A stretch of 64,000 nucleotides of DNA from Dacryopinax spathularia. Its lineage: Eukaryota; Basidiomycota; Dacrymycetes; Dacrymycetales; Dacrymycetaceae. A program made the position numbers and the translations under genes. The stretch is from positions 682,001-746,000 of the forward strand of contig JBBPFI010000008.1 in NCBI GenBank assembly GCA_037974965.1, in the 5' to 3' direction. The notes beneath the pieces are model-generated. The model was given only the letters and a program-made list of their open reading frames with translations, searched no databases and had not been told where the DNA came from. Positions 8,861-64,000 of this stretch are shown piece after piece (position 1 is the stretch's first letter; every line of letters starts with the position of its first letter).

Positions 8861-8869
8861 CTTCTAACG

Positions 8870-32283: not shown

Positions 32284-32290
32284 CCTCTGC

Positions 32291-32313: not shown

Positions 32314-32354
32314 AAATCGAAACTCGCGCTGTCGGAAGCAGATGCCCCTGGCGA

Positions 32355-37110: not shown

Positions 37111-37740
37111 TCTGATTTCAGTATTACTTTATTACTCGATAATGTTATGTGCCATGATTTCATCCTACTCATGCCCCATGCCCTTCTGCTTCGGCCACAG
37201 ACATGCTTACTGGTAGGAGATCTTGCGTGCCCCGACCTGCATAGTATAGGTAGCTCAGTGAAACTGACGGCATCCCTTCCCGCTGTCTGCTCTTCTTAAA
37301 ACCAGTCTCCTTCCCTCCATTTTGAGCGCTTGCATGTCCCCATCATGAGCTTTCGGAAGGCTCGACCAGTTTGGAGCGACAGAGAATTTTAACCGCTACC
37401 AGATCAACGGACGGTCCTTCATAACATGTAGCTTTCTCTACACCATATGTTCAATGTGAGAGTTAGTCCTTGCCAGGGTACACCTCCGCAGCTCCCCGGT
37501 TGGGGAAAGTACTTGTGAGAGTCAAAACGCTTTCAAGGTATAACAGCTGAAACGTGTAGTTCGCCCTAAAACGAGTCCGAATGACCTGTAGTTCAATATC
37601 GGGCAAGCAGAATAACGTGTGTAACGGCGGTCCGAGCCATTTCTGATCCGGAATACTGACCCTTGCCATGCCGTTCTCATCCGGAAGGAGTCTCCCCCTT
37701 CCATCCAACCACCATTCCGCATCCCTTCAAGGATCTTCTC
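37111..37740. other. Intergenic
   Basis: Between the HECT stop and the small bZIP-like gene. No supported ORF and no repeat are seen. Confidence 0.45.
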
Positions 37741-38303: not shown

Positions 38304-38607
38304 GCTTTACCCGTGCCGAATCTTGCACAATATCGACTGTCTCTGTCCTAGCTCGTAGATAAGGAACGTGTCATATAGAACAGACACCGCCTTGGCCCGC
38401 CTTGTTCAAAGGAGGCACTCTGTATGCACCCTTCGCCCAGCTCGCACCCCAGTAGTGTGGGACACAAGTACGCTCCTCCGCAAACTTCAGAAAAACGGGC
38501 GCTCATTGTTCCGTCATAGGCATCTGAACTCTTAAACATAATAGCGGTGACTAGGTAGGACACAGTGAGGTAAGGTCCATCCCCGACCATACCCCGGCCA
38601 CGCCCGG

Positions 38608-39259
38608 TCAGCTGTTCAGGAAAAAGTCTGCTTCAACTCCAGCTAACACGCGTGGGTCCATAAAAGGCGAGCAGTGCTTGAACATCATCTCGTAGAGATG
38701 ATCAATCGTGGTCATATCTGAGTCCAGTATTTCAGTATCTCGAGACCGCTTGGAAGCCTAACGGGACTTACCGAGTCCGTCGCCCATCTCGCAAGGCACA
38801 TGTAAGAGCTTGACACGGTCCACACCCACGACCTCGACGATGAGCTCCAAGAATGGTCCCACGAGTGCGTGTCCACTAAACTGGAGGACGTTAGAAGGAG
38901 GTGAGAGAGAAAGTCACAATGCATACTTCGTCTAGATCAACCATCACAGTTTTCCCATCGGTGCAGGTCACGGACAACTCGCCATCCGAAAGCTGGCGTC
39001 GTCAGCTCACGTTCTGCTCCCACCGGACCAGTACGCGTACCTTGTTTTCGATTTTACAGGTGAGTGTGACGCGCTTTCCTAAGAAATGAACGAGCCATCG
39101 CCCATTCACACGTGGGCGAGGTTCCGACCAATCAACCTTCTTTGGGCGCGCCTCCACGCAAGCTCCATTGGCTTCAACGTTGTCGAGTTGTCCGTTCGTG
39201 TCACCATGGTCGCTGGGAGTAGCATATTGGCTGCTCTCGTCTTCGGAAGTCTGATCCAT
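38608..39259 (-). CDS. RFA3: Replication protein A 14 kDa subunit (RPA3)
   Basis: Four exons (39259-39041, 38992-38927, 38880-38772, 38717-38608) give 167 aa. After an acidic ~50-residue N-terminus comes the OB-fold typical of RPA3: PRVNGRWLVHFLGKRVTLTC, then LSVTCTDGKTVMVDLDEF, PFLELIVEVVGVD and a C-terminal helix DMTTIDHLYEMMFKHCSPF. RPA3 is the small subunit of the eukaryotic single-stranded DNA binding trimer needed for replication and for recruiting checkpoint kinases. All introns (46-54 nt) keep the frame. The N-terminal acidic extension is longer than in ordinary RPA3 (usual total 110-125 aa). It lies inside the proposed E2. Confidence 0.8.
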
Positions 39260-39945
39260 ATTGGGGTCCTGCAGGATGTCTGAGCGCTCGTATGAGTAAG
39301 GGGAGACGGTGGAGGGGGTGATGGTCTTGGTATGGGAGCGACCTGGTCGTCCTCGTTCGCGCCTGTAAGCAATCCCCTTTTCAAAAGGAGAACTTCGCAG
39401 GGAGTAGCCTACCCGTGATTGATGCAAGGATCTAGAGTGGTCACACATAAGGATGATCGAGAGGTGCAGTGACATCCAGGGTGCGCGAGGGTAACCAGGG
39501 GAGTTTCGGAGTGTTGGCGCTTGGCTGTGCGGCGTATCTGGGTGTATCTGGGGTGTGCCCGGGAGCTGACCGGTGTGAAGCGGGACTTGACAGGTGAGGA
39601 CAGGGGTTCGCCGGTGGTGCAAGGTGTGAGAAGGGCTTGACCGGTGGTACAAGGTGTGGGAAGGAGTTCACAGGCGTGAGAAGGGTTTGACCGGAGGTGC
39701 AAGGTGTGGGAAGGGGTTCACGGGCGTGAGAAGGGGTTGACCGGTGGTACAAGGTGCTCGTCGGGGTGCCGGCCCGTGGTGACATGGGAAGCCAAACGCT
39801 CACAGAGTTGTACCTTCTACTCGACCAGCCTATGGTGTCTTTGTACATAAGCGTAGTACAATACTTCAGTGGAACTGGATCAGGGCTTGTGTACAGCTCT
39901 CGACCCTACACTTCCCAGTCTTAGTTCGAACCGGCCTCCACCGAC
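39260..39945. repeat. Intergenic with minisatellite at 39540-39775
   Basis: Upstream of RFA3. At about 39,540-39,775 there are four to five degenerate copies of a ~50 bp unit made of GGTGCAAGGTGTGGGAAGG and GTTCACRGGCGTGAGAAGGG parts. It resembles in composition the AGGGTGAA arrays but is more regular. There is no gene, and the overlapping ORFs are repeats read through. Confidence 0.6.
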
Positions 39946-41086
39946 ATGCTCGACCAGGATGTCGAGCAGCAGCAGCTCGAAATCGTTCTTAGGCAAGCCC
40001 AGAGGTGCGACTCCCTCCGCTCTATCTTCCTTTGCTTTTCTCACCGAAAACAACCTCAAGCGCGCGCGTGTCCTTGAGCGAATTTGCCTGCGTCGGTGCC
40101 TCTCTTCGTCGTTTCGAAGATCTCTTTTCGGACATCGACGATCTCGTCCGGCGACGCTACGAACGACGGTTATCCAGACACAAGCCTCCTGTTCTTCCTC
40201 ATCACTCCGCATGGGAAAGGGAGGCGATCTCGATCCCTCATCAAGCAGCCCAAGACCACGATGCAACTTGCCCACGCATGTCGAGTCTCGACCGTTTACT
40301 CTTTTTGGCAGTACACCTAGGACCTCCGGTGTACCGCATCGTGAACACCGAAGTGAGTGGCTTCACTCCCTCATATGTGGTGCAGCCGACCCTAATTGGC
40401 TTACGTTTCGGATAGGTCAAACATGGGCACGAGCGTATTGTCTCAAGCAACCTGCGCTATGTACAGCAAGTCCTTGACTGGGTGGTACGGCTGGTAGTCC
40501 CATGCGAGGACTACGCCCATGACGGCATAGCTTCCCTTCAGCCTATGCTGCGTCCTGCGCTCGACGCACCCACCAGAAGCCCCGGAACCACACTATCCAA
40601 CGAACGGTTCACGGGCTGGCCGCGGCTGTTATATTACGGTTGGGGAATCGATAACCATCTTCCGTTCTCAGGTCTGCTCCAAAGCCAATTGGTGGTGACG
40701 GTACGCATGACCACGGGTATTCATGCGTCCGTCTGATTTAGTCCTTAGTTCTATGCGCTCCTCTTCCAACCAGTCGACAGACTCGCTCACTTACAGGATG
40801 ATCATGCCAAAATATCTAGTGTTTTGTATGTTGGGGCGCTGGTGAGTCGTTCGTCCTCGAGGAGGAACGCTCCCTCAGTCTGTTACAGCTTATCGCCGCT
40901 GTAAATCAAGAAGCGCTTGAGGGAAGCCACGGTACCCATTCTGCTTTCCCTTATCGCTATTTCTATCATCACATCCGAGACGACTTCCTCAAGTCGTCTG
41001 CTCAGCTACGGCTCGCGTTTTGGAACCGGTTCTCGGCTGAAGTAAAAGCAACTGCGAGGAGGGTGCTAGCGGATGAGGTAGTTTGA
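39946..41086 (+). CDS. Unknown spliced E2 gene
   Basis: A clean multi-exon gene with exon 1 from 39946 to 40004, then 40079-~40350, ~40417-~40698, ~40798-~40842 and ~40890-41086; introns begin GTGCG, GTGAG and GTACG. The protein starts MLDQDVEQQQLEIVLRQAQ, has RRFEDLFSDIDDLVRRRYER (helical), HERIVSSNLRYVQQVLDWVV in the middle and FPYRYFYHHIRDDFLKSSAQ at the end. I do not recognise the family. Frame conservation over four introns argues that it is a real gene. Confidence 0.5.
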
Positions 41087-41329
41087 AGCCAGCGTTGTGG
41101 CTGGGCGGTAGTCCTGCAGGTAGCGTAGCGCAATGCATCATCTCCTCGCTGTTTTTGGGTAAGGAATGCAGATGACTACTGTGCACCCATCATCCAGTGA
41201 TTGTGCGGCTCATGGAAAGTTGCGGGCAGCGTGTGCCGCTGATAGGCAAATACTTAACTAACGCGTTCAGGACGCGAGGCGCGTAATCAGGGGAATAACT
41301 CCCACTTTGACCACGACCTGCTTTTCGTC

Positions 41330-42895
41330 ATGTCGATCTGGTCGATCTGGCCTGCCGGAGTGGTCGTGGACGAGATCTTATCCTATCTCTCTCATGATGA
41401 CCTTCTGAAGCTAGCATTAACGTGCAAAGGCATGCAACGTGCGATCGAAGTCCGGTGGAAGGATGTGAACACCGTTATGCTAGCGTGTCTGCTGGACTCC
41501 GTGAAGGATAGCCCCATCGGGGACGAAGATGTATGCGCGTTTGCCTCTAGGATGTACATGACAAACAGCTTACCATCGCTCAAGAAACTCGCCCGTGCCA
41601 AATGGTACTGCCAACGGGGATTAACGATGACATTGTCCGTGAAGAATATCGATGTGGCCGAAAATCTATATGACGGGTTGACTGCTCTAGCTTACGCCGT
41701 CGGGCCGCCCGCTTTCCCCAACCTACGAGCTTTCACTGTCCGCACCAACGTTCCTGCTGGTCTCGACCTTGTTACGAGGGTCGTTTCTAGCTCCAGCACG
41801 CGCATACACTTGGAACTGGCCGATGACGAGCAGGCGTATGAAGCGGTTGACTGGCGGAATGCCCTCGGCCCGGCTCTCGATCACGTCCTCAAACAATGCC
41901 AGTACCTGCAACATTTTCGCGTCACTGGCCGCGCAACGTACGCCCTGGATCGCAACGCGGCTGGCTTGCTGTCTCCCTTTCTCAATCTGAGCTTTCTCAG
42001 TCGAGTGACGATCGCACCGGAGTTCTCTTTCCAGGAGACTATGGACTTATTGCGTGATCATCCCAAAATCAGGCGTATCGATTTCATCGGGCAGAGCCTT
42101 GACGAAGACGTTCTCACGTATCTGGGTGTTCTCGCTGCCAAGGGCCCCTGGTCGCATCTCAAGCATCTCACGCTGAATACCAAGCCTTCTTTGGCCGTAC
42201 TTCTCATCGCTAATCTGCCCGCCCCTCTCCAGTCGTTGGAAGTAATGTTAGCCTGTCACGCCCTGCAGGATGACTTGAAAAGGTTCGCAAAGTGCGTGGC
42301 CGAGACGCACCCGAACTTGCATGAGCTGAAAATGGAGGTCGACACGGTTCCTTTCCGTTCGTCTCTACAATGCGTCGTTCTGTGCGATGCAACCGTACGC
42401 CTACGAGATTGCACCAAGCTCCGCCGATTCGCCTTCGCGTACCTCGCAACGCAACCTTTGATAATGCCCGAAGGCTCCTTACAAAAGCTGACGCGGAAGA
42501 TGGCGAACCTGGAATGGATCGAGGTCACCTGGCCACGATCCTTTGTCCAGCTCAACTACGGGGAAAGAAGGAATCTATTCTGCGAGAGAGGGGTTTCTCT
42601 TCTCGCCGTGCGCGATATCCTGGATAATTGTCCCCACCTACGCTCACTACGCGTAACTCGACTTACCTGGCCGAGTGACGCGCACTTCATACTGCCCTGC
42701 CCCAATCCACCCGTCCTTGTGTACGCCTTGCACGTTACGGGCCTGGTCGACGTGCTGGCGGCTATCTGGCGTTGGGTCTGGCCCGCTCTCAATATAGAGA
42801 TGCCTTCGAAGGCTACCTCTGCCCGGATACTTCATGTCGCCCGAACCCATAATCGGAGGAGGATTCAGGCAAGGATCGGAGAGGACGTGGTCTGA
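41330..42895 (+). CDS. F-box protein, LRR-like
   Basis: A single-exon 521-aa protein. The F-box is at residues 7-45 (WPAGVVVDEILSYLSHDDLL, then LTCKGMQRAI). Leucine-rich, repeat-like segments follow, with patterns such as FPNLRAFTVR, HLKHLTLNT, NLHELKME and HLRSLRVTRL. F-box proteins give substrate specificity to SCF ubiquitin ligases. Many basidiomycete genomes have large families of this kind. The ORF is intact and 230 bp downstream of the unknown gene. It may be element cargo or a bystander. Confidence 0.75.
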   Translation: MSIWSIWPAGVVVDEILSYLSHDDLLKLALTCKGMQRAIEVRWKDVNTVMLACLLDSVKDSPIGDEDVCAFASRMYMTNSLPSLKKLARAKWYCQRGLTMTLSVKNIDVAENLYDGLTALAYAVGPPAFPNLRAFTVRTNVPAGLDLVTRVVSSSSTRIHLELADDEQAYEAVDWRNALGPALDHVLKQCQYLQHFRVTGRATYALDRNAAGLLSPFLNLSFLSRVTIAPEFSFQETMDLLRDHPKIRRIDFIGQSLDEDVLTYLGVLAAKGPWSHLKHLTLNTKPSLAVLLIANLPAPLQSLEVMLACHALQDDLKRFAKCVAETHPNLHELKMEVDTVPFRSSLQCVVLCDATVRLRDCTKLRRFAFAYLATQPLIMPEGSLQKLTRKMANLEWIEVTWPRSFVQLNYGERRNLFCERGVSLLAVRDILDNCPHLRSLRVTRLTWPSDAHFILPCPNPPVLVYALHVTGLVDVLAAIWRWVWPALNIEMPSKATSARILHVARTHNRRRIQARIGEDVV

Positions 42896-43233
42896 GACTA
42901 TTGTTTCATCACCGACGTGGAGAAGGGGCAATTCGCAACGGTTGTAGTATTTCCATAATACTTCGTGTACTTCCTAGAATGATATAGTATGGCTTAATGA
43001 TTATCTGACTTCCCTGCCTGTTGGCTTCCAGTCTCCCAGCCACAACGCCCCCCTGGGCAAAGCTCCCTGCCGTCCTTCACGGGCAAGAGGAGCATATTAC
43101 GAACTAGGAATATCGACACAAAAACACGTGACTATGCCTCCGTGGGTGGGGTTTCCTTGCTGTCGTTACCCAGTGGGGTGATACCCTTCGTCAGCGCGAT
43201 TGTCTCCTACACTCCTGCCTCTGAGGTGTTCAA
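42896..43233. other. Intergenic
   Basis: Nothing recognisable lies between the F-box stop and the next gene. An AT-rich patch at 42,950-43,010 may be terminator or promoter sequence. Confidence 0.4.
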
Positions 43234-45507
43234 CATGGCGAGACTTCTTCGCTCTAACGGCCCCGTCCCAGATCTCAGCCATACCTATTTGGCCGACCGC
43301 TTGGTCCGACGATCGCTCCCTCTTGGTCCAGTGTCGAACACATTACCGGTCCCCTCCACTCCATCGCGCGAGCCCAACTTGCAGCCCGTCGGGCTATCAG
43401 CAAGGTAACGGTATGGTCCATCTCAGTGTCTTTCTATTCGCTGACTGGATTTGCAGTCGGCTTTCTGCGACATCAAACCCCACGTTTCAGGATCCCCCTG
43501 GGCACACTTTCGAGTCTACGCCGAGGTACGTAACTGAACTCACTCTTGTGCCTTCCTCCTGTTGACTGGCATAGCAGTCGTCGGTCTGCAGCATCTACCC
43601 CTACATCTCGCGAACTAGCCTCCCAAAATATTGAGCTTTCTCCGGGTCAACTGTATGACCGTTCCGTGAACGAACCGCTCTTCGAGTGGGGAAGCGGTCG
43701 CCGGTCGACCATGACAAGCCCTGCGCCCCGCGTGCCTGACAGACAGTCCGTAGAGCTCAACCCGAGGTCTGTATATTGACTCTCTCTGTATACTTTTCCC
43801 TCTGACCACCCGCACGTGTAGCACACCGTCTTCTGCATCTTTTAGCGAGGGTACGCACCCAGTGTCGGGCGGAAGCGATACCACAGAATCTCATCTCGGC
43901 AATGGGTTCGTGTATCCGGTTGACTGCGCTGGTCGAAGCTAATCTATCCGGCGTATAGGCTGCCAAGTACAGCGGCGACTGACCATCAGAATGATATCGA
44001 TCTGATGGCTGCCGGGTTGCAACCCTCGCCGTCGCCTCACTGCACCGCCTGGGTTCTCGTACGACGACGTGGCAGTCCAGATATCGACATCGTGATGCGA
44101 CCCACCGTCGTCTTGCCCGCATGGCCGTTGGCACCCCCCGCTGGTTTGCTTATACCCCACTTGTTCCTTCCCGGCTCTCGCACTTCCGCCGTCCATAAGT
44201 TCCAGCAGTTTCTTGACGAAGAATACGACTCATTTGAACTCGCGGCATGCTCAGTACCGTCAACATCAGATCTTCGCCCATCCGCCGCGCGGAACTTCTC
44301 GGGCTACATATCGCTCGGACCGCTGGCTGAACTGCTGTACCCTGCCGGCAGCCCGGTCAACACACCTATTCCCCCTGTCAACACGTCCGACGCCCGATAC
44401 TTGTCTTTCCTCGAGCAGGTTCGCCGCTCAAGTTCAGGCATGATGCCTGGGTCGGTATCCCGAGTATACTGCTTCTACCTCATCGACTGCTCAGTCGACG
44501 TCGTTGAAGGGCCGCCCGCCCCGCTACCCGGAGCCACCTTGCAGGTTGTCACAACCTTGCCATCCCTTCTTCGCGTGACACGGACTGCCTCTGAACAGTC
44601 CAGCGACAATGACCAGGACGGCCTCGAGGAGCTCCTCGCATCTACCCCTGAACTGACGGCTGATGGGGAGCAAGATGGTTCCGAGACTAGTATCGGCGCA
44701 AACAACGAATCCAACGTCCTTATAGTGTCTAACGACCTGTCAAACCCACTCGTGCCTTCTCCTATTGTGCGGGCTGAGTACGCTGTACGGTTCGCGCAGG
44801 TCACCACTCCCAAACCCGAAAACCCGTTCGCCCATATCCAAGAAGCTGAAGACTTTCCGCGTGTGCAAGCGTACCTCGAGTCCGTTTGCCCTGATATAGC
44901 ATCTCGGATTGATGAACGATCGCCTCGAACCTCCCCCGTTCGGGGATTGATGCGAATGAAGCTTCATACGCAAGCGTACGCCGAGGTATTCCAATCCCTG
45001 AACATGGTTCTGTCCAACTCCAAGGCCACGCATCGGGCCGTAGATCCAGCCAGCGGTTGGGCGAAGGAGCTAACCCCTGAACACGTTTGCGCTTGGTTTA
45101 ACGAACTCCTGCGTGGCAAAGCGTTCAGCCGCTCTACCTACTGCAATCGGTTTGGCATGCTCAATCGCTGGGAATTGCTATGGCAGGAGAAACGCCGCCT
45201 TTTCTTCAGAGACAAGGCCATCCTCGCAAATGTCCACCCCGTCGGGCAGGAGAAGGAGAAATACGACGCGGTGCTGGTGCTTGGACTTCTCGGCTTTCTT
45301 TTCGCGCCTGAGTCGATCAGGACTGGCATCGTTGCACCCGTTCAGGTTGGTCTTGCAACGACTGAGGAGGACTTCGCGTTGTACGCCAAGCGCTGGCCTA
45401 TCGAGAAGGTGGAAAATGCAATTAAGAATCACTTTCCTCAATATGGTCCTCGCTCTCGCGCCCGTGGGCGTCCGGCTGGTCGTCGATCCCGTCAAGCAGC
45501 CCCATGA
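43234..45507 (+). CDS. E2 relative of the E1 conserved protein
   Basis: Small 5' exons (start probably ATG 43234; introns ~43408-43456, ~43527-43575, ~43768-43821 and ~43909-43959) lead into a long exon ending at 45507. The C-terminal third (LTPEHVCAWFNELLRGKAFS, then FGMLNRWELLWQEKR, LGLLGFLFAPESIR and KNHFPQYG) aligns with the E1 gene at 11698-12573. It then extends into a basic RSRARGRPAGRRSRQ tail that looks like a nuclear localisation or DNA-contact segment. The middle is Ser/Thr/Glu-rich. Function unknown. The frame is intact, and its occurrence in both elements makes it a core gene of the family. Confidence 0.6.
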
Positions 45508-46017
45508 TCTCGATGTCACCCCTTCGCATCTCCCAGAATCGGTCATACCTTGCGTGGGCGTAGCCCACAGCTTCTCACATTCCCGGTCAGCGCACACCCA
45601 ACCCTCATGTTACGGCCGCCCTTGTGTCTTCCAATACTGGATATGGTTTTGGTACCGGTGTTGTCCACAATCAGAAACCACGGTGACGCAGGGGAGTGTA
45701 TCATTCTGCCTTCTTATGCGGATACGACCGGCCGGTCCTGTTGTATTACTCCTTATATCTGGATGGATTTGTTACTCTTTGTGCGTCGACGGTTTGGTAT
45801 TCCCCGGTATGCTAGATTACGTATCCGGCATTGTCGTGCAATTTATCGTTAAATCTGGCTACCGACGCCCTTCCTGCCCGCTCGCAAAAGTGCGCGCAGC
45901 ACCGTTCAAGCAATGCTCCAGCGGAGCCTGCCCTGTTCTATAATTCCCCGTCCGCACTGAGCGACCGTCTCTCCTCCACCCGTGTCCACCCTCAACACCG
46001 CGCCCTCCCTTAACGTG
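45508..46017. other. Non-coding, upstream of minisatellite
   Basis: Downstream of the conserved E2 gene. There are overlapping ORFs without recognisable content, so I see nothing in it. Confidence 0.35.
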
Positions 46018-46810
46018 TCGTCCTCTCAGGGAGGACGGAACACCGTCCCCTCCCTTAACGTGTCCCCCCTCAACGTGCCCTCCCTCAAGCGGTCCTCCCT
46101 CAAGACCGTGCCCTCCCTTCAACGTGTCCTCCCTTAAGGCGTCCTCCCTCCACGCCGTGCCCTCCCTTAACCTGCCCTCCCTCAAGCGGTCCTCCCTCAA
46201 GACCGTGCCCTCCCTTCAACGTGTCCTCCCTTAAGGCGTCCTCCCTCCACGCCGTGCCCTCCCTTAACCTGCCCTCCCTCAAGCGGTCCTCCCTCAAGAC
46301 CGTGCCCTCCCTTCATCGTGTCCTCCCTTAAGGCGTCCTCCCTCCACGCCGTGCCCTCCCTTAACCTGCCCTCCCTCAAGCGGTCCTCCCTCAAGACCGT
46401 GCCCTCCCTTCAACGTGTCCTCCCTTAAGGCGTCCTCCCTCCACGCCGTGCCCTCCCTTAACCTGCCCTCCCTCAAGCGGTCCTCCCTCAAGACCGTGCC
46501 CTCCCTTCAACGTGTCCTCCCTTAAGGCGTCCTCCCTCAACGCCGTGCCCTCCCTAAACCTGTCCTCCCTCAAGCCTCCCTTCACACACCGTGACCTCCC
46601 TTCAACGTGCCCTCCCTTAAGGCGTCCTCCCTCAAGACCGTGCCCTCCCTAAACCTGTCCTCCCTCAAGCCTCCCTTCACACACCGTGCCCTCCCTTCAA
46701 CCTGCCCTCCCTTAAGGCGTCCTCCCTCAACACCGTGCCCTCCCTTAACCTGTCCTCCCTCAAGCGGTCCTCCCTCAACACCCTGTATCCTCCCTCAACA
46801 TCGTTCACTC
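46018..46810 (+). repeat. CCTCCCTYAA minisatellite, array 1
   Basis: About 790 bp of ~16 bp subunits (CCTCCCTCAAGCGGT, CCTCCCTTAACGTGT and similar). Between 46,100 and 46,490 they are organised in four nearly identical 97 bp higher-order units. The strand is strongly C-rich/T-rich with no G-runs. A second array of the same family and orientation is at 62.6-63.06 kb, 16 kb away. Confidence 0.9.
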
Positions 46811-47777
46811 GCTCAAAGCTCCTTAAGTGGCAGCGCAATGCTAGCAGAAGATACTTAGCGGGAGACTTCATTTATGAACAACGCTGAGGTGCTACACTGA
46901 GTTCTGGACTGCGCGCCGGAATATGCCGCCAGGGCAGCAGTAGTGTTAGCCAGTGGCGGCGCAAGAAGTTGTCGTACCATTGATGCGCTCAGTAGTCGAT
47001 TATGCATGGAGCGGTAGACACTGATATGCAAGGATAGCAACGAGCAGGTCAAAGCCATGATCTGAATTGTGCCACAGAGGCACTTTTGATACTTTTGAAG
47101 GAACTGTTCAAAAGTCAAGAGCGCCTGGTGGACCCTTGAGCGCCTAAGTTGCCGCCCACTGGTGGCCCATTCTCCCCCGTTCAACTAGGCTTACTACAGT
47201 TCCATCTCCCCATCCCCTGAATGTCTACCCCTGAACTTATGGTACAACTACATGGCCTGCTGTCAACGCCGCATCTACTCAATCCAAGTTAACTTGACCT
47301 GGCCTGCTGTCAACGCCGCATCTACTCAATCCAAGTTAACTTGACCTGGCCTGCTGTCAACGCCGCATCTACTCAATCCAAGTGAACTTGACCTGGCCTG
47401 CTTAGGACCCCGGAACGCCAGCCCCCACTGTCGACCAATTTACTGGGTTTCAATGGGAATGCATTCCCCAATTGTTAGCTTCTGTACTGCTGCTTCCCGA
47501 GCTCGTATTAATAGCGCCTGTGGTTCCTCCGTGCCTCTTGCGATACCGACTCCATAGCTCTCCGAAGCTCCGTGACGCTCATGCCGCGGGCAAAGTGTCA
47601 CGACGAATAGCAGTTGCACGTGACGGTTTGCCTACTCCTAATCGATCGGACTCTCGCGCGACGCGTCTCCCGGGCATGCCGCTCTTGTACTCCATCCATC
47701 AGTTGTCGATCAGCAAGGTCCTCGTGCCAGTACTTATCGTCTCAGCCCTGTTGCGATTGACGAACCAAACGCCAGCT
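46811..47777. other. Non-coding, includes a 47-bp tandem repeat
   Basis: At 47254-47401 there are three 47 bp copies (starting GGCCTGCTGTCAACGCCGCA) and a partial fourth, almost identical. Around it I see no supported gene. The right part is likely the RAD17 promoter or an unrecognised 5' exon. Confidence 0.6.
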
Positions 47778-50205: not shown

Positions 50206-50986
50206 CAAGCATGAACACACATGCATGAGTTAGCACACCTGCGTGCATACAGTCTGTATTAGTTTTCCGTCGAGCCGTTACTGTACAGTAATTGTACCCT
50301 GATAGTCCTATTTGTATGGATGCAATTCTCTCGATCAGTCGTTTAATAACACAATGCGACCAATTATTAGCCGCCTATCCATCAGGTGTATAGGACAGCC
50401 GGGACCTCTCTAATCCCAATGCTTCCAAAAGCAGTCTCTAATGCCCTCCATCCATCCAATGAGTCAATGACCGCCTCCCCGGTGCAAGCGCCTCTTCTTC
50501 GTCTTCCGCCGTGCCTGTTTCTGAGCCTTGGTGTTAGATGGTTCACCAGTCAGACCCAAAATCAGGTTTTGCCTGCGATAGAAAGTATGTTTGTCAGGGG
50601 TGCTGAAGCTCGCAGTGGTGTCTTCCTCCGCAACATCTGAGGCATACACTGCGCACGCATCTGCATGGGTCGGTCGGGGATGCGCACCGAGCGTCGGTAC
50701 CGTGACCCATTCGCTGTCGTCTCCTTCTGTGTCGTACTGTTGTACGGGTACTGTGACCACAAAGATCATTGAGATGAGCACGGTCAAGAGGTGTGTTGAA
50801 CGACGCACCACCCTGCATTCCTGTGGTCCAGAACAAGCAACGGGCCGCTCCGTCCTCGCTACACTTTATACACTTTTGCCCCTCTACCCTCCAGCAGGTC
50901 TCTATTCGCTTGCTGGGACGTTTACCCGACTTAGCACTCCTTCGCGCGCCCCTACAATGTTGGCACCGATACTCGCCATGTGCAAT
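50206..50986 (-). other. Intergenic, possible last exon of next minus gene
   Basis: A minus-strand ORF at 50811-50464 (about 115 aa) ends in a basic KQARRKTKKRRLHRGGGH. It may be the last exon of the gene to the right, which otherwise ends at 50987, or a separate small protein with a hydrophobic start (LLTVLISMIFVVTVPV). Neither can be decided from sequence alone. Confidence 0.3.
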
Positions 50987-53836: not shown

Positions 53837-54107
53837 TGCTACCCAATTGAAGCGCTCTACAAAGAGGTTATGGCCTTAACAAACGTATGCTTGTTCGAAT
53901 TGAGGCATAGCGACGGGTCAGAGCGGAGAAGGCTGTAGTACCTGCATGGTTCACCGACGTGAGCGGCAGCGTCTTTGCTTCCGTGCCGGATGTTGAGATC
54001 CGCATGGCGCACGGCTTGGAGCACCTGCTGGCGGGTATATAGGGAAGAAGAAGGGGCTGGGCGTTCGCCTCTGCCCCCTGTTCTCCCCCCTCTCCCCGCT
54101 CTCGATC

Positions 54108-56242
54108 ATGGCAGACAGTACACTAGTCCTACGAGACCCACAAAGTGGCTACCAACCAAGCCATTGGCCCACCCACATCCAAGATGATGAACAACGTGAC
54201 TGGCCTTCCCCTCCTCCCCCAACCATCTATCCTCCGGCGAATCCGCCCACCGGGATAAGGGACACACGTCGAGGGTACACGGCGGTTGAGTTCCGCCTCG
54301 CCAAGCACCCCGGATTTCAAGCATCGATTGCTTCTTACATCCCAGAGGGACGGTGGCAAGTGTTTATCGACACTCGGGGGAGCATCCGAGCTTACTATGC
54401 GGACCTCCCGCAAGAGTGGCACATCCCGGTCGATGTGCAAGAAACGATGGTCTTGGCGCTGTACGGCCAGCCCCAGGTATGCCTGGAAGGCGAAGATACC
54501 CTAACGGTGTTGGTCTCGTGGAAGCTCCATTCCATCACGATGGAGACCACCACCTCAACGCCGCGGCCATCCGCGGCCTCAACCCGAGTGATCACGTACC
54601 GCGTCACCTTCAAAAATGGAAACTCCGTTGATGCCAGCGTCGTCCATGGAAGCTCCAATCCCGTCGCAATCGCTCTTCCTTGGGCCACCTTCGCCGATAG
54701 AGACGGGATGCCGCGGGTGCACTCCAGGAACCTGATCGAGGATCGTGTTGTGGATTTAGAGTTGGATACGTGGGTACGTGTCCTTTTGCCCTGTCTTAAT
54801 ACGGCTTAACCCATGCATTGCTCAGCACGGAACTGTGTCTGGGACTTATCTTCTGCCATCCGAGGCGCTTGTCCTCCATAACGACGAGCACGGCTTCCTG
54901 ATGACCTATACGCGCGCGTCAATTGAGCAGAAGAGCGGTCCTTTTACTACTCCCGCACCGCCTATCAACCCTTTCAAGCGTGTCCAGCCTGTACTTAACA
55001 CTTACATCGGTGGTATCTCTCACGGTTGGCAAGCCATGTTCCATCCCGATGCGGGAAAGGTCATCGCCCTCAGACGGTCCGCCGACTTAAGGTTATACTG
55101 TCAAGCTGGTAGGGATGATAGCAAGGCGGCTCCCACTTGTTGGGTCGATGTGCCAATCGATCCTAAGAGGGTCATCTCCGCGGTGTGTCTTGGGCCGCAG
55201 GCTCGCAGTCTTTGGTATCTTGGACACGTCGTCGGCACCGATACCACCTTCGTCACCATGGCCGTTCTACCTCCTTTCCCAACGGGCTTTCGCTATGCTC
55301 TCAGCCCGGAGGTAAGCACTGTGCAGTTCGACGTTGCTCAGTCAACTGGCGCGACCAACACTCTCCTTCACTGCAATCGTATGGAGATCATAGAGTACCA
55401 CGAGGCTGCCAAATCTGCCACGCTCCTGGTTGGGCAACTAGAGACGGCCCTCTGGCAGGAAATCGTCTGTATGGAGATTGTCGGCAGAAATCCGCCGGAA
55501 CCTCCGATTATCTCGGAGTGGAGGGTACCTGCGCCTCCCACGCGCCGGCTCGACGCTAATGATGCTGTGAGCGACCCCCCCCGCGCCATGATAGTGCACA
55601 CTGATGACTTTTGGATAGGCCATGCTGTATGCACGCCGAGCGGCCGGGGGCGTCATTGAACAAATCACTCCCGAACCCGCGCCTCCCATGCATGGGGTGC
55701 CTCACACATGGATGTTGCCCCGTCATCTCTGGGCACAGAAGGAGAGGTTTTATGCGCCCAAGGGGCCTCAAATGATCTTGCAGCGGAGTTATGGAGTCGT
55801 ACGACCCCTTAGCCTAGTAGCTATGGATACGGACGCTCACAACTCCATATGGATTGCTGTGGTCGCGCGCCCCGGACCAACATGTTGGCGCTACTTGGCC
55901 CTCAGGATGGCCGAAGTCAATGATCTGGATGAGATCGACAGCGACAGCGACAGCGACAGCGACACCGCAGAGGAAGATGTGCCTGACGCCGTTGCAATGG
56001 CCCTGCTCAAACCAGTCATACGACCAATCGACGCCGAATTCCGGTATGACGACCACCAGGCGAAGAACGCCACCACACTTTTGACAGTGAAGGACGCCCA
56101 CATTTACGACTTCTACAAACCCCCCCATCCGGACGCATGGTATGTGTACTGTGCGCTGGTGGACGATATCACCCGTGTGGCCAGCACGCGAATCCCCCTG
56201 GCCTTGCGGCAGGCCATAGCCGCTCGGTTGGGCGTGGTTTAG
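54108..56242 (+). CDS. Unknown 676-aa E2 protein
   Basis: Three exons (54108-54773, 54826-55566, 55619-56242) with in-frame introns of 52 nt. It is mainly beta-rich by inspection. It includes VEFRLAKHPGFQASIASYIP, FVTMAVLPPFPTGFRY and a late acidic run DSDSDSDSD (GACAGC repeats at 55,935-55,965). There is no recognisable domain, signal peptide or membrane segment. It begins 270 bp from the divergent gene at 53.8 kb, so the two may share a promoter. Confidence 0.65.
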
Positions 56243-56431
56243 TGGACGGTTCTCCGGCAGACTTCGAGGATATGCACGAAAGTAACATACCCTTCCCACG
56301 AGTGGGCGAGTTGAATTTGTATATTATTGCAGTACCGTTATGGAATGCGCGTGCCTAGGAAATCTCCCCTTTTCCCAATCCCAATCCCCCTTATTCCGCC
56401 CAGAGTCACACAGCGTGCCATAGCTCATGAG

Positions 56432-58081
56432 TTAGACAGGACCACGTAGACGGCTGCGAGCGCCGGGGTTGCCCTGGCCAACGATCGTCGCAAGGCGGTC
56501 AAGAATGGAGGCTCGTGCGTGACACTCATTCTGGACGGCCGCCCAGTTCCACTTTGCAAAAGGCTGCCAAGTGCCATCGCTATGCAGGTATTCCAAGTGC
56601 AGGACATACGGCGGACTGACGGTATCTTCCACTGTGAAACATAGCTTGCAGCGCCAGCACGGGTGGACACAAAGGCGCAGAGCGGCCGCAGTCTCGAAGA
56701 TGCCTTGCAGATGCTGCTCCAGTTGAGCTGCGGCCAAGCCGTGCCGCACTCTTCTGGCCAGCGCGTTCGTGATGGTCTGGTAGCTGGAGAAGCCGAAAAA
56801 AGTGGTCAACCGGAAGGTCAGGTCTTGACAGTTCCTCATATAAGCTCGACCCAACGAGATTACTGCCACCCTACCATCAAGCCGAGTCAGTGGAAGACGA
56901 GTGGCAAGCTAGGTACATCATACCAGATAATAAAGGAAGTCTCCGCGCAATTGCCGATGGTGACCGGGCCGCTCTCGTGCGTGTCCTCGCCTTGTAGGGA
57001 ACCTTGGGCTCTGCCCCACGCTTCAATCCTCATCAACTCGTCACCACTGCCCTTCAACAACCTTCTGATCTCCCCTCGCTGATACTCCTGGAGTGTCCAC
57101 TTCCATATGTGGTCGCGGCTCTTGAGATGTTCAGGCGTTCGGCTGTCATCCCAAGCGCCAGGAGTGGAGCAGCCCGAGAGGTGTACCAATGTCGATGTCG
57201 ACGGCAGCACGGGGTTGTTCGCGCGTATCTGGGCCGCCACCGAGTTTACCACCGTGGGCAACCACCTGCTGCCATAGAGAATTTTCACGAGGTGCCGCCA
57301 GGCGAAATGCAAACCGCGCGTTGCCCATTCCGACGTAGTACCCATCGCTCCTCGGAGCAAGTGCACTAAGTGGTGGTTTGTGGTCAGCGTCCGCAACAGG
57401 CGATACGATTTGCTCACTCACGCAGCGCGTTGCATCCATCGGCAATACGGTATTCGACAGCGTCGAAGGCAACCATCACCGCGAACAAGCTGCGGGCATT
57501 CGGATGCACGGTACCATGGGTAATTGGTATCCCCTCGGGACACTCGCTGGTGGCAACCTCACGGTAGGGAGCCGGGTGTTCCGTATGATGAAGCCTGTAG
57601 GGAGTGAGCTATCAAGGCGCCTATCGGAGGTCACATGAAGGAGTGCGCACCCAAGCTTTTCGATCAAATGCGGACCGGTAAAGGCGTCGTACAAGCGATG
57701 AGCCCAGACTTTATCTCCCAGCGGTCCGGTTGGATCTACCAGCCCGGCCATCAGGGTCAGCATTTGCTACGCAATATGTGAGAACTACTTGACCCAATGA
57801 AATCCAGAGGACCGCTTACCGTAGGATTACTTATTCCCAGACACTGATGAATCAGTTGCCAAGCTGCGGCTGTCGACATTGCTTCGCTTGATGTTCGCTA
57901 GCTGGTGCTGTGTTAGATCGTCAGGACAGCTGATCACGGTCCCTGAACGCGGCCAGCACGGGAAGGACCAAACGCCACGCGCGGGGGTACGAGCGGATGC
58001 AAATCGCGTCACTCTCCCTGCCGAACTTGCCGTATCCGCCACGCGCCAAGCGACAAGCCGCTTAGTAATCAGTCTGTCCAC
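56432..58081 (-). CDS. Unknown spliced E2 gene
   Basis: Several minus-strand ORFs in series suggest one gene of about five exons (58081-~57827, 57763-~57560, ~57500-57430, 57370-~56910, 56869-56432). Notable parts are MLTLMAGLVDPTGPLGDKVW, HLVKILYGSRWLPTVV, IWKWTLQEYQRGEIRRLL and a late Cys cluster HPCWRCKLCF that could bind zinc. I do not recognise the family. The exact splice sites were not settled. It lies directly downstream of the PIF1 gene on the same strand (94 bp). Confidence 0.4.
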
Positions 58082-58174
58082 CGGATGATTATGTCCACCA
58101 GATAATTATTGTCAAGTGCTCACGTCTAAGAACACAGGCACAGCGACCAGTATCTGCCAGAGTGGATTGACATT

Positions 58175-60132
58175 TCAGCAAGCCGCGTCTTTCTCTTCGG
58201 GACATTCCGGTATGGAACGGTACCAAGCCTGAGCCTTGGGATGTACTTTTACTCTCCCCGCGTCGAAGTTGAGTACCTGGAGATGCTGCCGATCACGGAC
58301 CCGAGACATTGCGACGTAAACTTGTCCTGCGGGAAGAGATCAGAGGTTACATGAAAATCTCTCGAATCACCCGATGGCGCACCGCATTCCCATGCGCCTT
58401 TCAAGTCCACTACTGCCCGATCCATTGTCAGTCCCTGAGCCTTATGGGTTGACATGGCATATCCGAGAGTGAGCGGCACCTGCTACGTGTGAGATCATCA
58501 AAGTTTCTGGGAGTCCGCACACGCTGACCTGAGTACGTATAGCGAGCTGCACCCTGCCATCGTCTAGACGCCAGGTGCGAGGGGGGACGATGATTGTCCG
58601 CTTCCCCCCGAGTGGCAAATGAAACTCCACTCTTGGGTATTGAATCGTGGCACGAGGTCGAACGAGCGTCGACGAAGCGATCGTCAAGCCTGCTTCGTTC
58701 CCGAATCCGACCACACGACCTATCGATCCATTTCCGAGACCGTATTCCTCCGTGCAGTTATGCAAAAGCATCACAACGGCGCCTTTTTTTAGTTCCAGGC
58801 GTGGGGGCACTACGAGACCGTCCAGAAGTTCGTGTGCCGCTTTCGGTCGAGAGAAGACAACGTCTTCCGCGATGTAAACGCGAACCGTGCTAGGCAACGT
58901 AGCTAAAGCCGCGTCGTTCGCCTTCTTGACATGATGACGGAGGTTGAAACTGCGGTGATAAGTTCCCATGCGGCCCGAGCTCCAAGACGGCACTCACAGT
59001 TGAGGCGGTGGTAATCCGTCAGGATAATGTACTTCACGGCGCAGCGCTCGGACGAGTCGAGTCGAGTGTTCGGTGACAGTACCTTGACGAATTTCCTCAA
59101 GGAGGGCGATAAATTCTAGAATAAGGTCATTCGCATTCTACGGCATTGGGTCGATCACCATGGCTTACCAGCCTCTTGTTGTCGATAAACAGTGGTCAAA
59201 CGATAAGAATGTTGGGGAAACAACCTGCGCCACACCATGGATTGAAAGGCCAGGCGAACGTCTCTGTGACCCCTGGAAACGGGTGGCAGCTGGAAGAAAT
59301 CGGCAGTGCAAACCACCTAAATTGGCATCAGGATTGGTTCATCGGTTGCCCGCGAAGTCGGTTGCCTGTAGGCCACCAAAGGGCAAAGTGCATTGTCGGA
59401 TTTGTTGAAGTGCGCTGTCCACTCGATCCAGTAGGCCAGCAGACAAGTAGCTCCCTTGTGGACTCGTCAAGCCTCCGGGAAAGCACACATATGCCTGTGC
59501 TCACCTTCATCTACAATCAATGCTTTCGTACTGCGCAATCGCTGGAGCCGCCACGGTTGGCGTACCATCTTTTCGGCGAGTTCGGCGGGTGAGCCATGGC
59601 CGAGTCCGATGCCGAGAAAAGAGTGGAAGGTGGTGCCCCCAATCTGGCAAGCGGCCGACCCAGTGGTCGCAGTGATTGCCACTTCCTCATAGCCATGGAT
59701 GGACCGCAGCTCATCTATCATCTTTCGCAGCGCGAACGATTTGCCAGACCCTGTGTAGAGCGTAAGCCGAGGTGACCTTTTATATGCGCTGCATATCAGA
59801 GGCGCACCTGCTGGACCCGTGAAGAAAACATTGCAGCCTCGTCTAACGAGTTGCAGTAGATATCGCTGCTGAGGCCCCAGTACCGGCTCGCCAGAGAACT
59901 CGGCAGGCCCAGATGCGTCATGACCTCCTACAAGCCCGGGTGCGCCTTCCGAAGCAGTATCATCTAGGCGGGTCCTGGGTAGGGCGGCAGCATGAGCTGG
60001 TACGGAAGGTGTCTTGTCCAACGGCCATTGTGTGTGGACCGCGCGGTGAGAGATTGCCTCTCGTAGCATAGATCGTCGGCGAGTTGCGCTGCTTAGAGGA
60101 AACGCGCTAGGGCTTGATTGTGTACGTTGCAT
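58175..60132 (-). CDS. PIF1: PIF1-family DNA helicase
   Basis: A 5'-3' superfamily 1 helicase. The first exon begins MQRTQSSPSAFPLSSATRRR, basic and without acids, so a mitochondrial presequence is possible. Walker A FFTGPAGSGKS is split by a 60-nt-class intron (near 59,758-59,818). Motif Ia ITATTGSAACQIGGTTFHSF follows, then ALIVDE, a central exon with VVFSRPKAAHELLDGLVVPP and LKKGAVVMLLHN, and the C-terminal PLTLGYAMSTHKAQGLTMDR and YVAMSRVRDRQHLQVLNF. It ends CPEEKDAAC. The order of motifs is that of genuine PIF1 rather than of the Helitron helicase at 1-600, and no Rep domain is attached. Middle exons (59.0-59.5 kb) were only partly traced. Confidence 0.8.
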
Positions 60133-60279
60133 GAGAGTGGCTGTTCAGGAAGAGAAGCGAAACCCGGACGCGTCACGATCTTGACGCGTCGTGCCTGACA
60201 CCCCAACCTTCTTTGCTTCCGACGATCGCTATCTCTCGGCCGCCGCTGACAGAAAGAAGTTATTAGTAAGATTGCCCCC
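60133..60279. promoter_or_regulatory. Shared divergent promoter, PIF1 and RAD9
   Basis: Only 147 bp separate the start codons of the leftward PIF1 gene and the rightward RAD9 gene. The interval must hold both 5' UTRs and promoters. No TATA-like sequence stands out. Confidence 0.4.
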
Positions 60280-62047
60280 ATGCCAAGAATGAACCAACTA
60301 CTCTCAGCGGTCCTCACCCCCTCCAGTGCGAAAAGTAAGATTGGCTGCCGCTTGGTGCGATACAAATGCTCACTGGAGAATGTTATACAAGCTCTTGCCA
60401 AATGCTTGAAGGCATTAGGCAGCACCGGGGATAAGCTGATTCTTACAGCCACCACTGATGCAGTAAGCGACCCATAGTTAAAGACGCATATGATCTCTGA
60501 AACTGCCGTAGATACGCGTACGCGCTGTCAATCTCGGCCAAACCGCCCAGGCATGGGCGGTTTTCAATAGGGCCTTCTTCGAGCAGTACGAGTGGCACGG
60601 AGGCGCCGGCGACAATGGCTCGGAGGTTGTGCTCAAGGAGGAAGACGAAGAAGAGTTCAGTGTGGACGGCCGTGCTTGGTTGGCAAAAATGGCTTTGGGC
60701 GAGATGCCATTCGCGATCGATCTCGTCAGGCTTCGCGTGTGCCTACCGCCTCTGAACGAAGCAAGGGGAGAGATAGGGTATTGGCTGGATATATGCTTCG
60801 AGAACGCCCGAGGTAGGTTCGATGTGGACTTCTCCCTTACAAGAGAACTCTCACGCATATATGCCCCTCTAGCCGGCGCCCTCATTCAGCGCTTGCCGAT
60901 TGAGGATGCACTCGCTGCAAAACTCTTTACTCACCCCGACGCGAATAGTGGGACGTTGCCAGTCATGATCAAACTCGGACCTAGTGCAGTGAAAGCGGTG
61001 CTGCAAGCCTCTACGAGAGCGGGCTGCGAACCCAATGCCAAGCTTGAATTTAGCACCACGGAGGAAGGGCTTTCCCTTGAATGCAGCGGGAGTACGCCGT
61101 CAAACCCACTTATCTATATGATCACCGGGCTGATTGTCGAATGCAGGCACACAAAAGATCACTACCACTGTGGAGCTGCAAGCTCAGGATTGTTTGATGT
61201 TTCGCTCGCCTACGCCCAGTTCGCGTTGTCAGGTCCCCTTGCGTGAAGTGCAGGTGTGAATAATCCATTATTCACGGTCTGTTTATGATTGATCTTCCTG
61301 ACTTAGGCGATCTGGTCTCTTGCGAGCAGCACGAACCGCGATATGATATGGGAGTTTGGTGAACCAGATGAAGTTCCCTCCGTCCTAACGGTGAGCGACG
61401 ATATGCCCGCTGAGACTTGTCGGCAATCATGGTACCTGGAGTGCTTGCTGGGCATGACGAAATTGGATGAGGACCAGGACATGAAGCCCGCATTGCCTGA
61501 GTCGGAACGCCAAGGCGAGGGCAAACGGCGTCGCGTAGAGCCTGGGCGTAAGGAGAATTTGGTACCTGTGGGCGTCTCAGTCTCTCGTATGCAATCGGTC
61601 GGTGACCAGGGGTGCATGCAGAGCCAGGCGTGTCGCAGCAGGAAACTTTCCGCCACTCCTGTCGCAGTATCTCAAAGACGAGCGCCAACCTACGAAACGC
61701 CCTTCCAGAGCCTCCCCAGTCAGCCTACAATACAGCCTCCGGAGACGCCAACGAGGCCAGCAAGACAGGCTCCATTCTCAAAGCCAGCGGTGCGGACCAG
61801 CGACCGGGCTACGGTTACGAGGCCGACGCAAGGCCGCTCTCAGGGAAGGCAGAGTGACCAGCCTCCATATTGGTCGGTGAACCACGGGATGTCCAATTAC
61901 CCGCATTTGGGATCGTCGCAGATGAGCGATCGTCAGATGGTACGTGCGCCTCCATATCCCCTGAGCGGAGACTCATTCGTCCGCATGGCGGCAGCTCCTC
62001 ACACCGGTGTTTGGGGGGCACACTCCCTCACTCGGAGTAATCGGTAG
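60280..62047 (+). CDS. RAD9: RAD9-like subunit of the 9-1-1 clamp
   Basis: Exon 1 (60280-60461) ends in VIQALAKCLKALGSTGDKLI LTATTDA. A 50-nt-class intron (60462-60510) leads to VRAVNLGQTAQAWAVFNRAF FEQYEW. This is the start of the Rad9 PCNA-like fold, where the Ser/Ala, Phe and AFF.QY pattern is diagnostic. A second domain follows (PSAVKAVLQASTRAGCEPNA, LEFSTTEEGLSLEC). After an intron near 61,243-61,308 comes a long disordered tail (Arg/Gln/Pro-rich) to 62047, as in other Rad9 proteins, whose tails are phosphorylated. The middle is more divergent than the ends of the domain. Rad9 forms the damage clamp with Rad1 and Hus1. Confidence 0.6.
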
Positions 62048-62599
62048 TGATGATGAATGGGAAGCCACGCCGGGGAAGGAAGTTCTTGTGAGTTCTAACA
62101 ATCCCAGTTGTCACGACTTGCTGAACTTCATCAGCACTTCGAGGCACTGTTCGACGATTAGGAACGAGTCGTCCTCGATCGCCATGGACCGCCTCCAGAA
62201 CGCGGTACGCAGTAAAGTGCCGCCGGGCGGAGACTTTATGGATGATGTCGAGCACTGCTGCGATCAGAAGTATGATTCTGTACAGTCAGCAAAAGGCACA
62301 GCTGGAGGGATTGAACATGTTGTATTGCTACGCTACTGTGATTGTCCCCATCCGAGCTACGGTTTGTACGGTAGTAAGATTGTAATGATATGAACGTTAG
62401 GACTCACTCCAGAAGGGGATGAAGGAGCCCAACAACACGATCGTCAAGAGACGACGACGCCCACAGGCGGTCATGCCCTTCGTCGTACATCTGCCCTAGA
62501 ATGTACACCTGCCCCCAACAGTGCATCCCTCCAGATATCCCTCCCAAGTCGTCCTCAATGAACAGCGTGGCCTTCGTTAACGAGCTCTCCCTGATGCGC
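62048..62599. other. Non-coding
   Basis: Between the RAD9 stop and the second minisatellite. Short ORFs on both strands without content; nothing recognisable. Confidence 0.4.
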
Positions 62600-63058
62600 T
62601 CTCCCTCAGCTGTCCTCCCTCAACACCGTGTCCCCCCTCCTTAAGGCGTCCTACCTCAACACCGTGCCCTCCCTTCAACGTGCCCTCCCTTAAGGCGTCC
62701 TCCCTCAAGACCGTGCCCTCCCTAAACCTGTCCTCCCTCAAGCCTCCCTTCACACACCGTGCCCTCCCTTCAACGTGCCCTCCCTTAAGCCGTCCTCCCT
62801 CAACACCGTGCCCTCCCTTAACCTGTCCTCCCTCAAGCGGTCCTCCCTCAACACCGTGCCCTCCCTTAAGGCGTCCTTCCTCAACACTGTGTCTACCCTT
62901 AGCATGACCTCCCTCAAGCCGTTCTCCCTTAACGTGCCCTCCCTTAACGTGCCCTCCCTTAACGTGCCCTCCCTTAACGTGCCCTCCCTTAACGTGCCCT
63001 CCCTCTGTGCGTGCCCTCTCTCGAGCCGTCTTCCGTCCACAGCGTGCCCTCGCTTAAA
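62600..63058 (+). repeat. CCTCCCTYAA minisatellite, array 2
   Basis: Same family and orientation as 46018-46810, with shared variants such as CCTCCCTTCACACACCGTG and CTCAAGCCTCCC. It includes six consecutive short CCTCCCTTAACGTGC units at 62,938-63,003. The shared variants imply a common origin or exchange between the arrays. Confidence 0.9.
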
Positions 63059-63465
63059 ACGTCCTCCATCCCGCAAGACCCCATCTTTAGGACGTCAGAC
63101 CTCACGACCTCCCATTACATTATCCCTGCCTTCACAAGGCTTCCCTCGAGGTACTGGATGACCGAGGCGTGCGATCTCATGATATACGGGTCGGCTTCTT
63201 TAGATTGGCCAATGTTTCATTACGAAGGGGATGGCACAGCTAGTGCAGAGACTGCAGATGCGGGCGCCGCAAGTCCACGGGGCAGGACATTAGCCGATCT
63301 GGTTGAAATTATCACAACGGAGAGCAAAAGGTACAGTAGAGGCGGGGCACGTGCGCCTGCTTTAGTGCGCGTCCCCTGCCGGCGCGCGCGTTTCCCATGC
63401 TCTCCCTCCTTCGCCATTGTCGTCTCGCCCCACGAACTCACTTGTTAAGGCATCACGAACTACAA
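63059..63465. other. Non-coding, upstream of RAD1
   Basis: Between the minisatellite and the RAD1 start. An ORF from 63,159 (MTEACDLMIYGSASLDWPMF) could be an upstream exon but has no support. Confidence 0.3.
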
Positions 63466-64000
63466 ATGGCAGCGAAGCAGGCAGAACCGGTAGGAGTGTC
63501 ATCTGCTACGTCCATCTTCGGGCTAACCATGATGCAGATGCTTGTACTAGAAATGGCGGATGTGCAGCCCTTCGCCGACATGCTCAATGCGCTGATCCCC
63601 TTCATCGGACGAAAAGCAAGTCCAGATCATGGATCCTAAATGAGGCCGAGCTCATTCATCACGGGCCGTAGTACGGCACCTTGACGATGTCAGACGCCGG
63701 GCTGATGATATCGGGAGACAATGGGAGCTCGGTCAGCGGTGAGTCTGTCGTACCGGGTGCAAGCAGAAAGGCGTCTCACCGTTGTGACAGCCCGTGCATA
63801 CATCCATTCGCACACGTTCTCCTCCTACCAGTTCAATAACGAGTATGACGAGGACACGGACCAGAGCCGGCCTCATGGTATCGACATCAAGATGGGCCTG
63901 CTGCTTGCCGCGGTAAGCGGCTCTCGCGGCGAAGGCTCCACCACTGGGTACGGAACTCGAGCGAGCTCGCAGAGTGTGCCGCTTCCGCATGAAGTGCACC
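63466..64000 (+). CDS. RAD1: RAD1-like subunit of the 9-1-1 clamp, 3' truncated by window
   Basis: Start at ATG 63466 (tentative). Exon 1 ends EMADVQPFADMLNALIPFIG followed by RK. An intron with the GC donor GCAAGTCC (63,616-63,671) leads to YGTLTMSDAGLMISGDNGSS V. A second intron (~63,739-63,789) leads to ARAYIHSHTFSSYQFNNEYD and IDIKMGLLLAA. This is the Rad1 beginning: a ligand-like DVRP helix, then SDAGL, then AYI...F...F, then the helix DIK..LLL. Rad1 pairs with Rad9 and Hus1 in the checkpoint clamp. The rest of the gene lies beyond the window. About 260 aa would be missing for a typical 280-400 aa protein. Confidence 0.7.

Follow-up and report, generated by a model that had tools for sequence, protein, structure and literature searches.

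A 35.3-kb DDE-integrase transposon of Dacryopinax spathularia carries homologues of checkpoint-clamp and fork-maintenance genes

What brings the genes of a checkpoint clamp, its loader, a subunit binding single-stranded DNA (ssDNA) and a PIF1 helicase together at one locus of the basidiomycete Dacryopinax spathularia? The question is raised by a stretch of 64,000 nucleotides (the window), which corresponds to positions 682001-746000 of contig JBBPFI010000008.1 (C8) in a genome of 29.2 Mb and 24 contigs. Extended coordinates, which continue the numbering of the window, run to C8:758000. A first-pass annotation of the window had reported RFA3/RPA3, RAD17, PIF1, RAD9 and RAD1 as a cluster carried by a giant mobile element, and both statements are borne out. 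The cluster lies within E2, a 35.3-kb DDE-integrase transposon whose cargo includes RPA3, RAD17, PIF1, RAD9 and RAD1, in an order kept in two full copies. This location follows from the inverted termini and duplicated targets of the element, from a second complete copy and from a paralogous site that is unoccupied.

E2 is bounded by inverted termini of the form TATGA...TCATA and by a perfect 7-bp target duplication (Table 1). At three mismatches or fewer, its left terminus occurs at two places in the whole genome, in the window and on contig C7, where a second full-length copy with a collinear gene order is flanked by its own perfect duplication, GTGCGTG. At the far end of the C7 copy, 28 bases are identical to the window at 32291 and the homology begins exactly there. 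The right end, which had been left to be mapped, was located where the homology between the window and C7 stops, at extended 67571, with a TCATA terminus followed by the second CTCTGCC. An unoccupied neighbouring repeat aligns straight across the insertion point, with 80% identity over 301 bases, and represents an empty paralogous site. An ordinary host gene cluster or a segmental duplication is therefore hardly conceivable: the surroundings do hold tandem duplications of host type, but this explanation is refuted by the termini, the duplications at two unrelated places and the empty site, and is further opposed by homology that ends at the termini and by isolated host-like gene copies elsewhere.

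Other delimitations were considered. The start at 38608 given by the first-pass annotation was ruled out, since the C7 homology and the terminus put the left end at 32292. A single 63-kb element spanning 4670-67572 was dropped once the neighbouring element E1 proved to have a right end of its own. A target duplication of 5 bp was replaced by one of 7 bp, which fits the set of elements described below and accounts for the variable first base. E2 sits between two members of a tandem array of host genes, oxygenase-like and NLR/TPR-like (named from the look of their sequences), which includes 120-bp repeats and occupies 24005-32182 of the window and extended 67573-71658. Within the C7 copy, the positions C7:1528222 and C7:1526904 also resemble the element terminus.

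With inverted repeats at both ends, a duplication of fixed length and a DDE transposase, E2 is a DDE transposon. The catalytic residues of its integrase are spaced D-56-D-34-E, and 870 relatives were retrieved at E 1e-20; the 120 best of these come mainly from Agaricomycetes and also from Calocera cornea, Rhizophagus and Clytia. These many relatives make the integrase a known kind of enzyme; a comparison with IMG/VR gave no match. The kinship with E1 suggested earlier also holds, E1 being an element in its own right that belongs to the same superfamily and shares the termini; both of its ends were found by matrix scan. A scan of the genome for the terminus pattern returned 77 matches, against 10 for the reversed pattern. 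Duplications were tested in 13 elements, namely the two E2 copies, E1 and ten pairs from the scan (eight elements of 15-39 kb and two miniature inverted-repeat transposable elements). They are exact over 7 bp in nine elements, 8 bp long in one, 6 bp long in two and 7 bp long with one mismatch in E1; in a cross-pairing control, none of 156 combinations matched at 7 of 7 positions and the best matched at 5. Two 39-kb elements bounded by such termini and by perfect 7-bp duplications (C4:504768-543887 and C11:390129-429074) carry an integrase, PIF1 and a relative of gX, a large gene of E2. In E1, a pair of 52-base inverted repeats (14037-14773) adjoins the end of the integrase gene, and a Helitron-type gene lies just to the left of the element (window 596-3477, minus strand, Helitron_like_N 3.2e-61).

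Table 1. Coordinates of E2, its genes and the neighbouring element E1 (window numbering unless marked extended; aa, amino acids)
Feature	Position	Strand	Evidence or remark
Transposon E2	32292-67571 extended (C8:714292-749571), 35,280 bp; in-window part 32292..64000		termini, 7-bp duplication, C7 homology, empty paralogous site
Target duplication CTCTGCC, 7 bp	left copy 32285..32291; right copy extended 67572-67578		perfect
Left inverted terminus TATGACAGCGAGTTCTGGACAAAAATC	32292..32318	+	same letters in C7 copy; right terminus ends at extended 67571
gA, conserved, no assigned family	32293..35114	+	first 470 aa scanned: no Pfam family
598-aa conserved gene (earlier 'HECT')	35116..37110	+	no Pfam family
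RPA3-like, ssDNA-binding subunit	38758..39448	-	PF08661 4.7e-5, above cut-off
DUF6698 gene	39784..41086	+	PF20414 6.3e-6, above cut-off
F-box-like gene	41271..42889	+	PF00646 2.1e-4; no conserved C7 counterpart seen
g3, conserved	43902..45507	+	69% identity over 501 aa with C7; no Pfam family
C-rich 15-bp-based repeat array (CCCTCCCTTAACGTG)	45962..46821	.	between g3 and RAD17
RAD17, clamp-loader subunit	47987..50205	+	PF03215 5.1e-19
gX, large gene	50464..53856	-	no Pfam family; relatives at ~36 loci
gY, conserved	54108..56242	+	gene model; Pfam scan
gZ, conserved	56432..57763	-	no Pfam family
PIF1 helicase	58175..60140	-	PF05970 2.4e-17; window model fragmented, C7 model whole
RAD9-like clamp subunit	60280..62393	+	PF04139 (weak in window copy)
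Second C-rich array, repeat as in 45962..46821	62595..63019	.	between RAD9 and RAD1
RAD1 clamp subunit	63466..64000, on to extended 64860 (C8:746860)	+	PF02144 1.3e-18
DDE integrase	extended 66921-65102	-	PF24764 1.6e-65; E2 right end
E1, separate element of the same superfamily	4671..16987	.	integrase gene at right end; 7-bp duplication with 1 mismatch

Genes were modelled with a small purpose-written gene finder based on codon use, splice sites and conservation, and all five genes were confirmed to be present in E2. Among solved structures, sequence comparison places RAD17 closest to human RAD17 (2.7e-17) and to yeast Rad24, and its P-loop domain retains the Walker A motif and the EDLPN box in the gene models. 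The PIF1 gene of the C7 copy matches PF05970 at 8.4e-24. RAD9 falls below the cut-off of PF04139 in the window (6.9e-4) and above it on C7 (5.5e-6), where it also gave four matches in the PDB, all of them RAD9A, at E 0.007-0.013. The RAD1 protein had 0 matches among PDB sequences. RPA3 is over the Pfam cut-off once one conserved exon is added to the model (4.7e-5 in the window and 4.5e-6 on C7) and is absent from the Pfam results without that exon; a search of the genome for the RPA3 family found none, the controls being likewise silent. The first-pass annotation had credited the element with a clamp of its own, a loader for it, a subunit that binds ssDNA and a helicase. This stands for RAD9, RAD1, RAD17, RPA3 and PIF1 and fails for HUS1, for which a family search of the genome detected one locus, outside E2 at C7:303k. 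E2 thus appears not to encode a complete RAD9/RAD1/HUS1 (9-1-1) set, in agreement with the earlier remark that HUS1 and the small RFC subunits were missing from the cluster. The HECT identity once given to the 598-aa gene was not confirmed, and gX had no relative at E 0.01 among 8000 candidates scored from a protein database.

Protein identity between the window and the C7 block varies from 33 to 96% by exon, and the rate of synonymous substitution (dS) from 0.55 to 1.52. A third copy, on C12, is decayed, with a shorter collinear core, a fragmentary integrase and an inverted RAD1. The gene order shared with C7 and with the C12 core places the cluster beyond chance. Ratios of nonsynonymous to synonymous substitution (dN/dS) between the window and C7, which were taken on aligned stretches only and thereby favour conserved parts, are lowest for the integrase (0.08), followed by gY (0.13), gX (0.15), gZ (0.16), g3 (0.17), the 598-aa gene (0.26), the DUF6698 gene (0.33) and gA (0.38), and a small gene at 37.6 kb has 0.49; the opposite-strand control ranges from 0.32 to 1.11. 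Compared each with its own control, RAD17 (0.29 vs 0.50), RAD1 (0.31 vs 0.57) and PIF1 (0.25 vs 0.51) are evidently under constraint, as far as these ratios indicate.

RAD9, RAD1 and RAD17 are present in several copies in the genome, with host-like copies elsewhere, and the single copies named in advance as a refutation of the mobile cluster were not what the genome search returned. The host copies were designated by tree for RAD17 (C2:466k), by best Pfam score for RAD1 (C4:230k) and by isolation for RAD9 (C3:1068k, with 35.5 bits vs 35.8 bits for the element-linked C4:1416k). No gX, PIF1 or integrase match lies within 25 kb of these three loci or of HUS1 at C7:303k. Among the remaining 16 RAD-family loci, 15 have such a match within 25 kb (RAD1 at C6:298k does not), a proportion that holds partly by construction, the choice of the host RAD9 and RAD1 leaning on isolation, and to which PIF1 alone, being frequent, contributes a weak signal. 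When gX is considered by itself, 11 of 19 RAD loci have a neighbour within 25 kb, where 1.1 are expected under a uniform approximation. For these counts, 56 gX matches were merged into 36 loci, and 45 integrase matches were reduced to 22 loci. Of 93 PIF1 matches, 91 were used (two second-exon rows omitted). RAD9 is represented by seven loci, RAD1 by seven merged from 12 matches, and RAD17 by five, reached from 14 matches by merging second-exon rows and dropping six rows below the cut-off; the E2-type RAD9 genes of the window, C7 and C12 are excluded. The RAD1 relative without an element gene within 25 kb is that at C6:297825, while another, at C6:1426330, is 17 kb away from an integrase that has a terminus at C6:1445421.

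For RAD17, a tree suggests the origin of the cargo. The C2:466k gene is much closer to Calocera and Dacryopinax RAD17 than the element copies are, and in this tree, built from 25 proteins, it falls with these Dacrymycetes. When it is aligned to Calocera cornea in seven pieces, identity is 57-85% in five of them and 35 and 43% in two long ones; for the long pieces of the element copies the range is 30-42%. Four element proteins group together with modest support (82/77), forming one group in 90% of 200 bootstraps, and this long-branched group is nested, together with host proteins of Dacrymycetes, in a 100/100 clade; the placement of the C10 copy, on a very long branch, is unsure. The separate long-branch group predicted for the element genes was recovered for RAD17, inside the Dacrymycete clade. 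By this nesting the element RAD17 looks host-derived, and the gene was probably taken from a Dacrymycete host before evolving within the element.

The association of gX with PIF1 extends beyond E2. PIF1 matches lie within 20 kb of 33 of the ~36 gX loci, against 4.2 expected. In five pairs of RAD9 or gX loci the identity is 99.5-99.9%, and their duplication is hence recent. A Helitron-like unit of ~41.5 kb exists in two precise-ended copies (C4:979905-1021353 and C17:248217-289806), ~99.5% identical where compared, and carries RAD9, PIF1 and gX relatives. A single reading frame, open over at least 2,071 aa, combines Helitron_like_N (PF14214, 1.2e-29) with PIF1 (2e-20); the unit has no shared flanking repeat, and hairpins, folded with no shuffle control, lie close to each end. 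It is a Helitron by its RepHel protein and its lack of a target duplication. Since RAD9, PIF1 and gX are found both there and in E2, the module rides in two kinds of vehicle.

What could such genes do for a transposon? On balance, the checkpoint genes of E2 probably serve its own transposition, and we infer that the cargo may be used for transposition itself or for control of the checkpoint. E2 would supply RAD17, RAD9, RAD1 and one RPA subunit, and the host HUS1, RFC2-5 and RPA1/2. Hybrid loader, clamp and RPA complexes would form at the junctions between single and double strands left by cutting and joining by the integrase, where they would shield the transposition gaps and control the damage signal. 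Together with the PIF1 helicase, they may aid the repair or copying of the long element, so that transposition would be survived and copies gained. Several points weigh against a function of this kind. No constraint is visible on RAD9 (dN/dS 0.40 vs 0.36 in the control) or RPA3 (0.45 vs 0.45); the PIF1 and RAD1 models of the window are fragmented, leaving the intactness of this copy uncertain; HUS1 and the RFC subunits were not found in E2, where a diverged HUS1 could be missed; and the two 39-kb elements gave no match in the genome searches for RAD9, RAD1 and RAD17, which implies that some members of the superfamily can do without the RAD genes.

The same lack of constraint on RAD9 and RPA3, the decay of the C12 copy and the differing RAD content of the elements would be consistent with passive cargo, that is, copies of host genes picked up and carried along with no role in the life cycle. 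This appears rather unlikely, as several genes that belong to one pathway and are otherwise unlinked recur jointly, with their order kept, despite the dS values given above, three of them under constraint, and RAD relatives travel in a Helitron too. The genes could also act as an anti-checkpoint decoy, diverged RAD17, RAD9, RAD1 and RPA3 forming faulty hybrids that compete with the host clamp and damp the alarm raised by transposition breaks. The strong divergence of the proteins and the presence of clamp and loader subunits with no HUS1 would suit such a role, which we nevertheless regard as unlikely: RAD17 retains its Walker A motif and EDLPN box, and the RAD9 tail is highly conserved, with 21 of 24 residues shared between the copies in one stretch (by eye, on gene models), which fits active complexes better although it is still compatible with a decoy.

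Beyond a role of the cargo in the transposition of E2, we tentatively propose a new class of mobile elements, a broader claim that may well prove too wide. Its members would encode their own RAD17, RAD9, RAD1 and RPA3, the subunits that give the complexes their identity, together with PIF1, and would borrow the rest to control repair synthesis and damage signalling at their own intermediates. A gX-PIF1 core with a variable RAD set would then constitute a portable module present at ~36 loci and carried by vehicles of two unrelated kinds, DDE transposons and giant Helitrons. Transposition gaps and breaks are visible to the host checkpoint, and whether mobile elements actively control its response is hard to test. 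The E2 family would make such control directly testable and represents a natural experiment in which checkpoint complexes could be built from foreign subunits. It brings to light, in a basidiomycete, DDE transposons that are giant and rich in genes as well as a giant Helitron, and suggests that a mobile element took over part of the host DNA-damage machinery.

How does E2 compare with known systems? The tyrosine recombinase domain of Starships is DUF3435. E2 resembles these elements as a giant fungal element with many genes and differs from them by its DDE integrase, no tyrosine-recombinase family being present among the E2 models scanned; Starships are giant cargo transposons of Pezizomycotina classified by their tyrosine recombinase (PMC12134995). 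IS3EU/GingerRoot elements are described as having an integrase-like DDE transposase, short TA..TA termini and duplications usually of 6 bp (PMC10045372). Compared by termini, duplication and transposase type, E2 is similar in its integrase-like DDE transposase and its TATGA...TCATA termini; its superfamily, in which duplications are mostly of 7 bp (range 6-8), differs in having members of 35-39 kb and, here, a cargo of checkpoint genes. Helitrons possess a PIF1-type helicase and some an RPA-type gene (PMC6431247). E2 shares both genes, but in E2 the helicase is encoded separately and the RPA gene is RPA3, and it has inverted termini, a 7-bp duplication and a DDE integrase, with no Rep match in the models scanned.

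Polintons/Mavericks are giant elements with a DDE integrase and replication-related genes (PMC6431247), all of which applies to E2. By analogy, E2 might be a self-synthesising replicon using its clamp, loader, single-strand-binding subunit and helicase for its own replication, an idea to which its integrase, this gene set and its repeat arrays lend themselves. We judge it highly improbable, because no protein-primed DNA polymerase B or other DNA polymerase, ATPase or capsid Pfam family occurs in the E2 models scanned, although six genes could be assigned to no family (gX, gY, gZ, g3, gA and the 598-aa gene). E2 also differs from Polintons in that its clamp and loader are of the eukaryotic checkpoint type. 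With the cellular RAD17-RFC/9-1-1 system, E2 shares RAD17, RAD9 and RAD1, whose homologues in the element show the expected domains, and its set differs in being transposon-borne, diverged and devoid of HUS1 or RFC2-5. Among the best-ranked matches of a literature search in open-licence papers, no element with 9-1-1 genes was found.

Some minor features of E2 complete this description. C-rich arrays similar to those of the window occur in the C7 copy, and one is present on C12. They are possible binding sites or G-quadruplex formers, and it may be speculated that, being G-rich on the opposite strand, they would suit a PIF1-type helicase. No paper on DUF6698 was found in the open-licence literature searched. 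In gZ, the motifs NCAE and PCxxC are conserved in three copies, and we take them to be reminiscent of a deaminase zinc site.

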